Positions 3,028 to 58,506 of a stretch of 58,506 bases of DNA are shown here, piece by piece (position 1 is the first letter of the stretch; the number at the start of each line of letters is the position of its first letter). Both the position numbers and the translations under genes were made by a program. The stretch comes from an uncultured Eubacteriales bacterium (lineage in GTDB: Bacteria; Bacillota; Clostridia; Peptostreptococcales; Anaerovoracaceae): assembly GCA_902795135.1 (NCBI GenBank), contig CADBJW010000010.1, forward strand, positions 1-58,506, written 5' to 3'. The notes beneath the pieces were generated by a model. It saw only the letters and a list, made by a program, of their open reading frames with translations. It was not told the origin of the DNA and ran no database searches.

Positions 3028-4503
3028 TTATTCGATGCCTGCGATAGCCTTTGCGAGAGCCTTCTTGCCTTCGATGTTGCCCTGTCTCTGGATCATGATT
3101 CTCTGAGCCTGAGGGGAACCAGCACCGTGCATGGATTCTGTTCTGTAACCAACAGCTGCGGAACCAAGGCAAAGGTTTTCAACCAGTCTCATGATTCTCT
3201 GTCTCTGTTCAGTGTTGCAGGCAGCTTCGTTACCTACGAAGAACTTCTGGCAGAAGTCGCCAATTGTTTCACCGTTTCTACCAACAGCCAGGTCTGATTT
3301 GAAGTCTGTTTCGGATGGCATTGTTACCATAAGTCCGCCTGCGATGTCTTCTGCAAGTCTTACGATTTCGTAAGGGAATCTTGTAACGTTCTGCTTACAT
3401 ACGTTTGCCAGCAGCAGGTCGATCTGATAGTTACCAGCTTCTGTTGGGTATCCTTCTGCGGAGCATGCGATACCGCAGCAGTACAGAGTTTCGTTCAGGT
3501 GAGTCATTTCGATGAGCTTGTCCTTAATGTGGGAAGCTCTCTGAGCGCCATTGTATTCAGCAGCCAGAGCAGCAGCGCCGATCAGAACGTCACCAACGCC
3601 AACCTTGCAGCCGCCGTATGACTGTCTGTGATATCCAGCAAATCTTTCTACCAGCATTCCTGCGAAGTCATATTCGCCGCACATGAAGATGTATTCGTTT
3701 GGAATAAATACGTCGTCAAATACTACGAGGGCTTCCTGTCCGCCAAACTGAGCGTTACCCAGATCGATGTCAGCGCCTTCTTCCAGCTTTCTAGTGTCGC
3801 AGGACTGTCTGCCATATACCATGAACATGCCTTCTGCATCGGATGGGCAAGCAAATGCAACTGCATAGTCCTTATCTTCTTCTGTCATTGCCTGTGTAGG
3901 CATTACGATGTGCCAGTGTGAGTTGATGGAACCAGTCTGGTGAACCTTAGCGCCTCTTACTACGATACCATCTTCTCTCTTTTCCTTGATTCTTACGAAC
4001 AGATCAGGGTCAACCTGCTGTGAAGGTCTCTTACCTCTGTTTCCCTTAGGGTCAGTCATAGCACCGTCTACTACCAGGTCTTTTTCCTGTACCATCTTCA
4101 GGAAGTTTACGAAGTTTTCATGATACTTTGTTCCATAAGCTTTGTCGATTTCGAAAGTTGTGGAGAAAGTAGCGTTGAAAGCGTCCATACCAACGCATCT
4201 CTGGAAGCAGCCAGCAGTCTTCTGTCCGCAAAGTCTCTGCATTTTAACCTTGTTTCTCAGGTCTTCTGTACTCTGATGCAGATGAGCAAATCTGTTGATT
4301 GTTTCGCCAGTCAGGTTTGACTTTACAGTCATAAGGTCTTTGTATTCAGGATCCTGTGCCAGATCATAAGTAACCTTAACGCAGTTGATGGAAGGTCTGA
4401 TAATTGGATGGTCAACCCAGTTTTCAATCTTTTCACCAAACATGTAAACTCTTGTCTTTAACTGTCTTAAGCTTTCAACATACTGTTCGCCTGTCATTAA
4501 CAT
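3028..4503 (-). CDS. abfD: 4-hydroxybutyryl-CoA dehydratase / vinylacetyl-CoA delta-isomerase
   Basis: Radical FAD and [4Fe-4S] enzyme that dehydrates 4-hydroxybutyryl-CoA to crotonyl-CoA, the key step of 4-aminobutyrate and succinate fermentation to butyrate. The 491-residue protein aligns by eye without gaps to the C. aminobutyricum enzyme: the four cluster ligands fall at C99, C103, H292 and C299, exactly the published numbering, and the flavin-binding HQTGSINSHWH region is present at 188-198. The fold is that of 4-hydroxyphenylacetate 3-hydroxylase/acyl-CoA dehydrogenases. It starts MLMTGEQY after an AAGGAG site. Intact ligands argue for a fully active enzyme. It is followed by a hairpin and three more genes of the pathway, and preceded 66 nt upstream by a NifU-type gene. 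Confidence 0.97.
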   Translation of the reverse strand: MLMTGEQYVESLRQLKTRVYMFGEKIENWVDHPIIRPSINCVKVTYDLAQDPEYKDLMTVKSNLTGETINRFAHLHQSTEDLRNKVKMQRLCGQKTAGCFQRCVGMDAFNATFSTTFEIDKAYGTKYHENFVNFLKMVQEKDLVVDGAMTDPKGNRGKRPSQQVDPDLFVRIKEKREDGIVVRGAKVHQTGSINSHWHIVMPTQAMTEEDKDYAVAFACPSDAEGMFMVYGRQSCDTRKLEEGADIDLGNAQFGGQEALVVFDDVFIPNEYIFMCGEYDFAGMLVERFAGYHRQSYGGCKVGVGDVLIGAAALAAEYNGAQRASHIKDKLIEMTHLNETLYCCGIACSAEGYPTEAGNYQIDLLLANVCKQNVTRFPYEIVRLAEDIAGGLMVTMPSETDFKSDLAVGRNGETIGDFCQKFFVGNEAACNTEQRQRIMRLVENLCLGSAAVGYRTESMHGAGSPQAQRIMIQRQGNIEGKKALAKAIAGIE

Positions 4504-37774: not shown

Positions 37775-39109
37775 TTATTCTACCGCCAACTCCGTAAAGT
37801 CTTCGATGAATAACTTGTCGCCGGAAACATAGTCTTCATCACTGCCCCGTTTGATGCGGCAGATATGTTCCTGCGTTTCATCATCGCTATCAAATGACGG
37901 GAGATTGTTTTCGATCCCGCTGTGAACCGTGTTGACATCCGGAATGTCTCCATTGCACTCCAGTCCGGCATCACTGAGCTGAGAATTGATTTCGTCTGCC
38001 CACCAGCTCATGTCTTCCTTCACCTTCTGATTATCCAGCTGTCCGGAAGGCGTTTGGGCAGCGGCGTTGCTATCCCGCGTGTCTTCGTTGACCGTTAATT
38101 TGTATCCCACTGTTGATTCAACGGCTGCCGTGTCCAGTGTCTTTTCGAACTCACCGTCGATTTTGTAAAGCAAGCCGCCTTTTTCTCCTGCGTCAGTTCC
38201 AAGGATCCTGTCTCTCTGAATGTACAGATAGGTTTCTTCATCCTCGTTGGACTTGAGGAACAGATCATACTCACCTTTTGGATTGTCGGCATCATCAAAA
38301 TCAACCGTTTCACTGTCCAGCTTGACGATTTCGTCTTCCTCATGTCCATACAGTTCCAGTTCCAAAACCATCTTTTTATTGTCTTTGCAGCTAACCGTCA
38401 GCAGTTCGTCTTCGCCGTCATTATCCATATCCCTGACAGACGCACTGACAAGTCCCACCTTACCGGTTGCAGCGCTGTACTCCTGATCCAAAAGCACTCG
38501 TCCCTGATTTTCTTTTTCCTTGACGATGTCCGCATAGGTTTTCTTCGGCTTAGCTGGCGTTGTTGCCGGCTGGGTTGGTTCCGTCTTACCTACATTGTTC
38601 GGTGTCTGGTCCGTACCCGTATTGGATCCGGTCTCCCTATTTGAAACCTCTACCGTAACATTGGTTTCCTTTTTCTTGGTAATGATTTCTATTTTTTCCG
38701 TATCACCGGTTTCCTGATATACTTTTTTGACCTTGTCATAGGCAACCGGAATGTTCGGTCGGATGTTTATGGCCTCATTAAAGGCCAGTTCCGCCTGTTC
38801 GTAATCCCCGTTCGCCAGGTACTGATCCCCTAAGGCAACGGATTTATTGTATTCCGCCGCTGTAACGTTCGCGTTTACGTTTATCGCCAGGCCTGCAATC
38901 ATGACCCCCACAACCAGAACCGCTGCCAGCGAGGCAATCATGACCTTACGCTCTTTCGTATCCTTTGAAAACCGTTCCAAAAGCCCAGAAGGCCATTCTA
39001 TTTTCCGCCTTTGTTTCTTAGAAGCCGTCTCCAATCTGGCGCCGCACTCTTCACAAAAACGAGTACCAGCCTCATTTTCATGTCCGCATTGTTCACAAAA
39101 TAAACCCAT
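37775..39109 (-). CDS. Zinc-ribbon, membrane-anchored TPR protein of the kinase operon
   Basis: First gene of the kinase operon, 444 residues, function unknown. The N-terminal zinc ribbon (FCEQCGHENEAGTRFCEECG) is followed by a basic segment, a membrane helix (VMIASLAAVLVVGVMIAGLAI), a TPR-like repeat (NGDYEQAELAFNEAINIRP), a Thr/Pro/Lys linker, and an outside domain with VRDMDNDGEDELLTVSC. The order of parts and these two motifs match the protein at 15523-17313, so the two are paralogues. Upstream TAAAAT near 39140 could be a -10 but I see no good -35. The cytoplasmic zinc ribbon plus outside domain suggests a sensor or substrate of the neighbouring kinase. Confidence 0.82.
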   Translation of the reverse strand: MGLFCEQCGHENEAGTRFCEECGARLETASKKQRRKIEWPSGLLERFSKDTKERKVMIASLAAVLVVGVMIAGLAINVNANVTAAEYNKSVALGDQYLANGDYEQAELAFNEAINIRPNIPVAYDKVKKVYQETGDTEKIEIITKKKETNVTVEVSNRETGSNTGTDQTPNNVGKTEPTQPATTPAKPKKTYADIVKEKENQGRVLLDQEYSAATGKVGLVSASVRDMDNDGEDELLTVSCKDNKKMVLELELYGHEEDEIVKLDSETVDFDDADNPKGEYDLFLKSNEDEETYLYIQRDRILGTDAGEKGGLLYKIDGEFEKTLDTAAVESTVGYKLTVNEDTRDSNAAAQTPSGQLDNQKVKEDMSWWADEINSQLSDAGLECNGDIPDVNTVHSGIENNLPSFDSDDETQEHICRIKRGSDEDYVSGDKLFIEDFTELAVE

Positions 39110-39251
39110 ATCTACCCTTCCTTTAATTCATCCGCCTTTTAACCACTGTATATTTTACCATACTGTCACGTACATTGCCATGCCTAACAGCGCGAGCCAG
39201 TGGTATTCCAATTGTATGTCATTCGTTGCGATTTTTGTGTTTGGGTTTTTG

Positions 39252-39454
39252 CAAAGGGCCGGCGGGGCCGTGCCCGTGCGAATCCGCAAGAGCTGTAGCA
39301 ATCACCGGCGAAAGGAGCCAGGAGAATAGCAAAACGCCACCGACTGTTTGAGGGAGGTCGTCCCGAGTTTCGGTGGCGTTCTATTCTCCGCGAGTAAGCC
39401 GTAGGGATTGTCAGCGATGAGGACAACGCGCGGGCACGGTCCGCCGGCCCTTTG
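39252..39454 (+). ncRNA. Candidate large structured RNA, raiA-motif-like in size and GC content
   Basis: The 418-nt gap between the zinc-ribbon gene and rpmF is GC-rich, lacks a credible gene and folds strongly. A closing stem of about 27 bp joins 39252-39280 to 39427-39454. Within it a 9-bp stem (39321-39329 with 39381-39389) stacks on an 11-bp stem (39333-39343 with 39370-39380), capped by a small GGGA/TCCC hairpin at 39352-39364, and a further 5-bp hairpin lies at 39408-39426. The two imperfect positions of the closing stem (39266/67 with 39440, and 39277 with 39430) are G-U pairs in the plus-strand RNA but A-C mismatches on the minus strand, so I assign the plus strand. The length of about 205 nt and the high GC recall the raiA motif of Clostridia; I cannot confirm the family. 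I found no convincing promoter. Confidence 0.6.
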
Positions 39455-39471
39455 GCGAACTAATCAAACAC

Positions 39472-39510
39472 AAAAAAACTGTCACACCAACCTTCGTCAA
39501 TGTGACAGTT
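39472..39510 (-). terminator. Terminator of rpmF
   Basis: A perfect 10-bp stem (AACTGTCACA/TGTGACAGTT) followed by seven T on the minus strand, directly after rpmF and just outside the structured RNA candidate. Confidence 0.88.
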
Positions 39511-39527
39511 CCTCATTGTTTTAATTC

Positions 39528-39710
39528 TTAAGCTTCTTCAGCCATGATGTCTCTGCCGTCATAATAGTTGCAGTTCGGGCAAACTCTGTGTGGAAGCTTT
39601 GGTTCGTGGCACTGCGGGCAAATTGAAACGCCAGGTGCCTTCATCTTCATGTTTGCTGCCTTTCTCTGATGAGTCTTAGCCTTTGAAGTTTTTCTCTTAG
39701 GTACTGCCAT
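39528..39710 (-). CDS. rpmF: 50S ribosomal protein L32, zinc-binding form
   Basis: Large-subunit protein of 60 residues, MAVPKRKTSKAKTHQRKA at the start and a zinc ribbon formed by CPQC and CPNC. The zinc-containing (C+) form implies normal growth under zinc sufficiency. The DUF177 (YceD) gene that usually precedes rpmF is absent; ackA lies upstream instead. Confidence 0.97.
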   Translation of the reverse strand: MAVPKRKTSKAKTHQRKAANMKMKAPGVSICPQCHEPKLPHRVCPNCNYYDGRDIMAEEA

Positions 39711-58146: not shown

Positions 58147-58263
58147 TAAGCGGCAACGTCTTGCTTTCCCAGGCAGTCACCCGCCAAGTATCATCAGCGC
58201 AAAGGAGCTTAACTACTGTGTTCGGTATGGGAACAGGTGTGACCGCTATAGTCACCGCATATT
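58147..58263 (-). rRNA. rrf: 5S ribosomal RNA
   Basis: On the minus strand the conserved 5S core is plain: the loop C region CCCATACCGAACACAG, then AAGCTCCTTTGCGC, GGCGGGTGACTGCCTGGGA and terminal stem sequences TGCGGTGA and the matching 3' end. About 117 nt. It follows the 23S gene by about 100 nt and precedes the operon terminator. Exact ends are estimated within a few bases. Confidence 0.93.
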
Positions 58264-58362
58264 TGTCTGTGAGTGTATGCACACTCAAAACTGAATAAAA
58301 TCCATGATCCATCTGAATCATCTGTGTAAAGCAAAAGTCTTTTGCTTCCTTAAAAACCTCTC

Positions 58363-58506
58363 TGGTCAAGTATTCGACCTATTAGTATCGGTCAGCTAAA
58401 TACATTACTGCACTTACACCTCCGACCTATCAACGTGATAGTCTCTCACGGGTCTTACCCAAAAGGGAGGAGATCTATTCTTGTGGGGGGCTTCGTACTT
58501 AGATGC
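58363..58506 (-). rRNA. rrl: 23S ribosomal RNA, 3' end (truncated by the window edge)
   Basis: The minus-strand sequence matches the end of domain VI of 23S rRNA: GTGATAGGTCGG-like segments, ACGTTGATAGGTCGGAGGTG, GTATTTAGCTGACCGATACT and the final AATAGGTCGAATACTTGACC. Only the last ~144 nt are in the window; the rest lies beyond 58506. Confidence 0.95.

Follow-up and report, generated by a model that had tools for sequence, protein, structure and literature searches.

A palindromic, strongly folded sequence beside rpmF as a probable copy of a non-autonomous hairpin repeat family of the Clostridia

The palindrome beside rpmF and its dispersed copies

The window, which here means the whole stretch of 58,506 nt that was analysed from an uncultured member of the Eubacteriales, carries the gene for ribosomal protein L32 (rpmF) and a zinc-ribbon protein gene in tandem on the minus strand (Table 1), the TPR matches within the latter product falling under the Pfam cut-off. 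The two genes are separated by a gap at 39110–39527, the 418 nt that the first-pass annotation had given, and within this gap, antisense to both neighbours, lies an imperfect palindrome with terminal inverted repeats. The outermost of these, TTTTTGTGTTTG and CAAACACAAAAA, bear out the weaker symmetry that had been described outside the two main arms. Similarity to paralogues runs from about 39222 or 39229 to 39476 or 39477, and an R2 match spans 39251–39457 (189.5 bits), nothing else in the window reaching E≤1. The right-hand end of the window carries a 5S rRNA and the 3′ end of a 23S rRNA (58148–58506, minus strand).

Table 1. Features of the element and its neighbourhood (positions are those of the window)
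Feature	Position	Strand	Basis or remark
Zinc-ribbon protein gene	37775–39109	−	Pfam Zn_Ribbon_1; neighbour
Whole element copy, weak outer arms included	39232–39476	+ (motif orientation)	Inverted repeats, paralogue similarity
Closing stem, 5′ arm (approximately helices 1–2 of A4)	39252–39280	+	Inverted repeats, fold; two-sided changes at 27/27 pairs of helices 1–2
Conserved 5′ internal-loop motif	39281–39295	+	AATCCGCAAGAGCTG in the window, usual form in relatives TTCCGCAGGAGCAG; alignments, pattern scan of genome contigs
Inner covarying helix 9, 5′ arm	39333–39343	+	A4
Apical module ACTGTTTGA-hairpin-GAGTTT	39343–39370	+	Alignments; among the best conserved sequence of the family
Inner covarying helix 9, 3′ arm	39370–39380	+	A4
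Conserved 3′ partner of the 5′ internal loop	39412–39424	+	CAGCGATGAGGAC in the window, usual form in relatives CCTGCGACGAGGAC; alignments
Closing stem, 3′ arm	39427–39454	+	Inverted repeats, fold, A4
Terminator-like site 3′ of the L32 gene	39473–39514	−	Adjoins the outer arm; taken as outside the element
rpmF (ribosomal protein L32)	39528–39710	−	Pfam Ribosomal_L32p; neighbour

When the plus strand of 39232–39476 was folded as RNA, a nested rod of −141.9 kcal/mol was obtained (z −11.1, with none of 200 shuffles folding as well), in agreement with the strong nested fold proposed previously. The minus strand (−128.3 kcal/mol) is equally far from its own shuffles (z −11.9), so that the strand is not fixed by the window alone. 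Between 39050 and 39760 one terminator-like site was found, against 1.0 expected from shuffles, and one promoter-like site, on the minus strand, against 0.5 expected by chance; a search with the sigma-70 consensus gave no plus-strand promoter-like site in this interval.

The element is present in many copies. In its own genome, a draft that is 91% complete, DNA similarity gave 11 matches, seven of which (the window copy among them) were near full-length and were used as paralogues for a first covariance model; the other six are 79–83% identical to the window copy. With this model at least 14 dispersed copies were detected in the same genome, and the dispersed copies found by both routes rule out a unique RNA gene. 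Across the family, the first model found copies in 16 of 148 genomes (own genome counted), carriers with many copies including G142 with 11, G127 with nine and G004 with seven. A second, refined model, built from 41 matches and run over the class, detected copies in 21 of 391 genomes, the own genome and G004 included; both searches were run with strict filters, at which weak matches are lost. Copy size ranges from about 170 to 290 nt across the family. A pattern scan of genome contigs with the 5′ motif returned five stretches on four contigs, titled uncultured Eubacterium, Clostridiales, Firmicutes or Bacillota, and the second model placed an element in every one of them, that in L130 being partial. 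Some copies lie close together as inverted pairs (e.g. L013, L076, L087, L088 and L063). The window element had no match in the plasmid or phage collections and the 5′ motif no exact match in viral contigs, and a common form of the apical motif matched three viral contigs exactly, of which the covariance model supported L302, supported L301 weakly and did not support L300. Shorter hairpins in two genomes of another family (L115 and L116) match the inner part of the model only and carry an apical ACTGTTTGAGC..GCGAGTTT module; this module may be older than the rod.

Covariation, wobble pairs and strand

In A4, an alignment of 41 copies to the covariance model, two-sided changes occur at 74 of 77 pairs, and 92.5% of cells are paired as against 35–44% when the partner is slid. 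Helix 9 has 99.1% of cells paired, two-sided changes at all 11 of its pairs and G-U in four of 449 cells. As A4 was fitted to the model and leans towards the model structure, a structure-free alignment (A6) was made with MAFFT from 15 copies, none of them of the subfamily of the window copy. RNAalifold gave the same core fold from A6, without the outer stem, which MAFFT aligned poorly, and two-sided changes were found at 40 of 48 pairs, 95.7% of cells being paired as against 30–47% when slid. The stems vary freely while the sequence of the internal loops stays, the common forms of the kept loops being UUCCGCAGGAGCAG facing CCUGCGACGAGGAC, the apical ACUGUYUGA-hairpin-GAGUUU and CGAGGAC. Across the homologues in these alignments selection for pairing is very strong, and to this extent the earlier claim of selection on structure stands; that the structure is one of RNA is not proved by the wobble pairs on which that claim had been founded.

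The same wobble pairs had been taken to fix the transcribed strand, for which the family gives a mixed answer. Measured against shuffles, 45 of 55 copies fold more stably as the motif strand than as the complementary one (mean −4.8 kcal/mol), although the 55 copies are related and these counts are not independent events; in the same comparison the 6S RNA of relatives favoured its own strand in 29 of 29 cases, by −6.9 kcal/mol. Over all helices of the A4 consensus structure the ratio of G-U to A-C is 108:44. This strand bias suggests that one strand may well be the working strand. The outer helices (63:20) do look RNA-like, but in the inner helices the ratio is 28:19 in 1391 cells, as against 68:12 in 889 cells of the 6S RNA control, and the share of G-U is 2.0% against 7.6%, that is, about a quarter as frequent (columns with a majority of G-U, of which A4 had one and 6S three, were left out, and 25 of the 29 6S sequences were used). 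In A6, with one column dropped, G-U to A-C is 20:10 of 704 cells; compared with 6S RNA, the G-U share differs at P 1e-5 and the G-U:A-C ratio at P 0.058. An earlier hairpin alignment with equal mismatch scores had given G-T to A-C of 80:51 for 55 elements and 42:29 for 6S, and a stricter scan about 1:1 for both; since the hairpin-alignment counts were alike for elements and 6S, that method could not separate RNA from non-RNA, and the consensus-structure counts were used instead. The inner helices switch among all four Watson–Crick pairs with few wobble intermediates, unlike those of 6S RNA. A palindrome kept as DNA, or copying from arm to arm that renews the pairs, would fit this pattern better than an RNA helix.

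Comparison with Rfam gave no match at 39252–39454 at gathering scores and none in the region at E≤10, on which account raiA, OLE, ROOL, GOLLD and HEARO were rejected. The likeness to the raiA motif RNA noted previously is therefore one of length and GC-richness, from which the dispersed, multi-copy nature of the element also sets it apart. When 18 loci from relatives and the own genome were compared with Rfam at gathering scores, the only match was a group II intron (RF00029; L073, 381–446, minus strand), which directly adjoins an element copy of the own genome. Group IIC introns also favour terminators, and terminator-like hairpins were seen by eye to adjoin several of the copies.

Genomic placement, ends and candidate enzymes

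To classify the neighbourhoods, ORFs of at least 100 aa were taken as genes; nine of 54 loci had no such ORF on one side and were dropped, and the remaining 45 comprised 24 convergent, 18 tandem and three divergent pairs. Convergent neighbours are thus far more frequent than in the window itself, where four of 50 ORF pairs converge when the threshold is matched (P 1.1e-6, the loci being related and not independent events), and the picture is unchanged at thresholds of 90–150 aa, where 22–25 of 39–45 loci are convergent, although the orientation of L005, L062 and L063 had been labelled differently in an earlier 90-aa assignment. In L048, L060 and L067 no more than about 15 nt separates either arm from the end of the ORF beside it, and in these three and L049 the 5′ arm starts at most about 40 nt from where the adjacent convergent ORF ends. 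Nine flanking proteins from six loci, of which seven matched Pfam, differ in family. Among 29 L32 loci of relatives, several of them cut by a contig end, one (L157, in G540) holds an element, in the same orientation to rpmF as in the window. The sequence after L32 differs between the window and these loci, so that no clean empty site was found there; nor was one obtained from the LemA and ABC loci. Pneumococcal BOX, RUP, SPRITE and IS elements are reported to show the same bias towards convergent genes, which is read there as the mark of a mobile element (PMC3049150).

Several copies in the own genome, belonging to the subfamily of the window copy, are flanked by inverted GGGACGGTTC/GAACCGTCCC-like ends. 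Such ends also occur without the rod, a 12-mer of this type giving 28 matches at up to one mismatch, some of which look like coding sequence, against four for the control. The window copy is without them, and the copies of relatives that were read, together with the G265 units, have other ends. In G265, a one-contig genome, pairing of matches by hand delimited 13 segments of 1.1–1.8 kb between the same inverted 18-mer, which has 34 matches at up to two mismatches against none for the reversed control. Of 16 spans inspected in this genome, 15 lack any ORF reaching 80 aa and the remaining one has an ORF of 94 aa, so that the units inspected hold no transposase-sized ORF. A pair of mosaic units shares 97% identity over 1818 nt between unlike flanks, which is the best sign of movement. 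The many near-identical dispersed copies that had been named as the mark of a MITE are accordingly seen in part, as these two units of G265; in the own genome the copies are dispersed without being near-identical, and their 79–83% identity to the window copy does not show recent movement there. The non-coding mosaics of about 1.8 kb at L216 (983–2799) and L213 (1075–2898), with common ends, nearly fill the space between convergent ORFs in G265.

Inspection of G265 segments showed no autonomous partner with the same ends. Two longer segments between common ends, of 2.8 and 3.6 kb, were considered for this role and rejected: by eye they hold a MerR-like regulator and an ArsR-like gene with a reductase gene, and no transposase, and we read them as chance or cargo. 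Among 17 carrier genomes, nine have matches to the Y1 transposase, the own genome among them, and eight, including G265, G127, G142 and G004, have none (most are drafts). The own genome has a single Y1_Tnp match (L014, 1178–1513, plus strand), to a protein that we take to be an IS200-like TnpA. Over 44 loci, the likeness between the two flanks was greater than between mismatched flanks in the inverted sense (mean 17.7 against 14.0) and less markedly so in the direct sense (15.75 against 14.2), and one clear long direct repeat was found, of 26 nt, in L302. On this viral contig the two perfect copies of the repeat, itself a terminator-like hairpin, lie on either side of the element (about 4047–4232) and are possibly a target-site duplication.

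Interpretation and comparison with known systems

Our working explanation, which we hold to be probable, is that the stretch is one copy of a non-autonomous, hairpin-structured family of interspersed repeats of the MITE/REPIN/BOX kind, the folded single strand of which is recognised in trans; the family is apparently uncatalogued and is scattered over a number of Clostridia genomes. The reasons are its multi-copy dispersal, the G265 units, the covariation, the convergent bias, the inverted likeness of the flanks and the wobble-poor inner helices; of the origins proposed in the first-pass annotation, the MITE-like one is thus the best supported. A trans-acting recombinase or transposase would recognise the folded single strand, with the kept internal loops as recognition points, and the pairing of the stems would be preserved as a DNA palindrome; copies multiply within some genomes and are commoner than expected between convergent genes, where insertion harms least. 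That the family spreads by transposition, that it is recognised as single-stranded DNA and that a mobilising enzyme acts on it are all three things that we infer. Against this explanation stand the lack of a mobilising gene or empty site among the sequences searched, the single clear long direct repeat among 44 loci, the divergence of the own-genome copies, the energetic preference for the motif strand and the wobble bias of the outer helices.

These last two points are what a new class of structured RNA would predict, with the plus (motif) strand transcribed, its kept loops binding a protein or ligand, and its many copies there by happenstance. The conserved loops between covarying stems and the excess of G-U over all helices agree with such an RNA, yet in the inner helices wobble pairs are hardly strand-biased and fall well below the 6S rate, no plus-strand promoter-like site of the sigma-70 type was seen near the window copy, in four loci the 5′ arm leaves hardly any space after the ORF beside it, the flanking proteins are of unlike families, and at the strict filters used the distribution within the family is sporadic. 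We regard an RNA class, perhaps of trans-acting RNA, as rather unlikely. The same lack of space, and the position of the sole promoter-like site on the minus strand, make a dedicated antisense RNA gene unlikely, and a passive mobile element is a closer likeness for the stretch than a one-off regulatory RNA gene. It might instead be of the REPIN/TIRYT type, with a Y1 (HUH) tyrosine transposase to move it, the GGGACGGTTC ends as terminal repeats and the rod as their cargo. The ends that flank several own copies and occur alone elsewhere fit this, as does their resemblance to the GGGGWSAS that TIRYT repeats are reported to share (PMC3733652, PMC6006769); the different ends of the copies in relatives and of the G265 units, the lack of such ends on the window copy itself and the eight carriers without a Y1 match make it improbable. 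Even less probable, in our view, is that the element is no parasite but a 3′-end device kept by the host, acting as a barrier or terminator where genes converge. The excess of convergent sites, the closeness to ORF ends and the adjoining terminator-like hairpins would speak for such a device, but it is not kept at the same gene, a single one of 29 relatives' L32 loci having an element, and it accords poorly with the tandem and divergent loci (18 and three of 45 at the 100-aa threshold).

Beyond the preferred reading of a non-autonomous repeat, we suggest more tentatively that these could be mobile nucleic-acid structures found across the class, with a conserved, probably protein-binding core and inner Watson–Crick pairing that is nearly wobble-free, spread by an as yet unrecognised enzyme (not Y1 in several carriers, and none seen within the units). 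In one genome the units form mosaics that share their ends and reach 1.8 kb. The family raises the testable question of how long hairpins spread in those Clostridia that gave no Y1 transposase match, and its kept loops and free stems make this new repeat family a clean bait for the handling protein. In scans for structured RNA, covariation is often accepted as proof that the structure is one of RNA, and such massive covariation in a family resembling a dispersed DNA element is a warning case.

The family was undescribed in the titles and abstracts searched, which, most subscription papers being outside reach, is weak evidence of absence. Like BOX, RUP and SPRITE as they are described, it consists of short folded repeats without coding capacity, present in many copies, favouring sites between convergent genes and regarded as mobile without autonomy; by description, the long rod, kept internal loops and compensating stems set it apart, and those elements are reported from pneumococcus and close relatives whereas the present family occurs in several families of one class (PMC3049150). 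The stem-loop families Bcr1, Efa-1 and Clop-1 are likewise repeated, foldable and from Firmicutes, the Clostridium families measuring 31–93 nt in the one table consulted and being compared here by description only (PMC2267715). REP/REPIN and TIRYT repeats are described as interspersed palindromes that are believed to be processed in single-stranded, hairpin form; REPs are reported to measure 20–40 bp, so that the present rod is several times longer, relatives have other ends, and the TIRYT repeats resemble the GGGACGGTTC ends of several own copies and not the window copy (PMC6006769, PMC3733652). Unlike these systems, the present family occurs in several high-copy genomes that gave no Y1 match. 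Integron attC sites are imperfect palindromes in single-stranded form, the unpaired bases of which are fixed while the stems vary, and the kept loops and changing stems of the present family may be seen as analogous to them.
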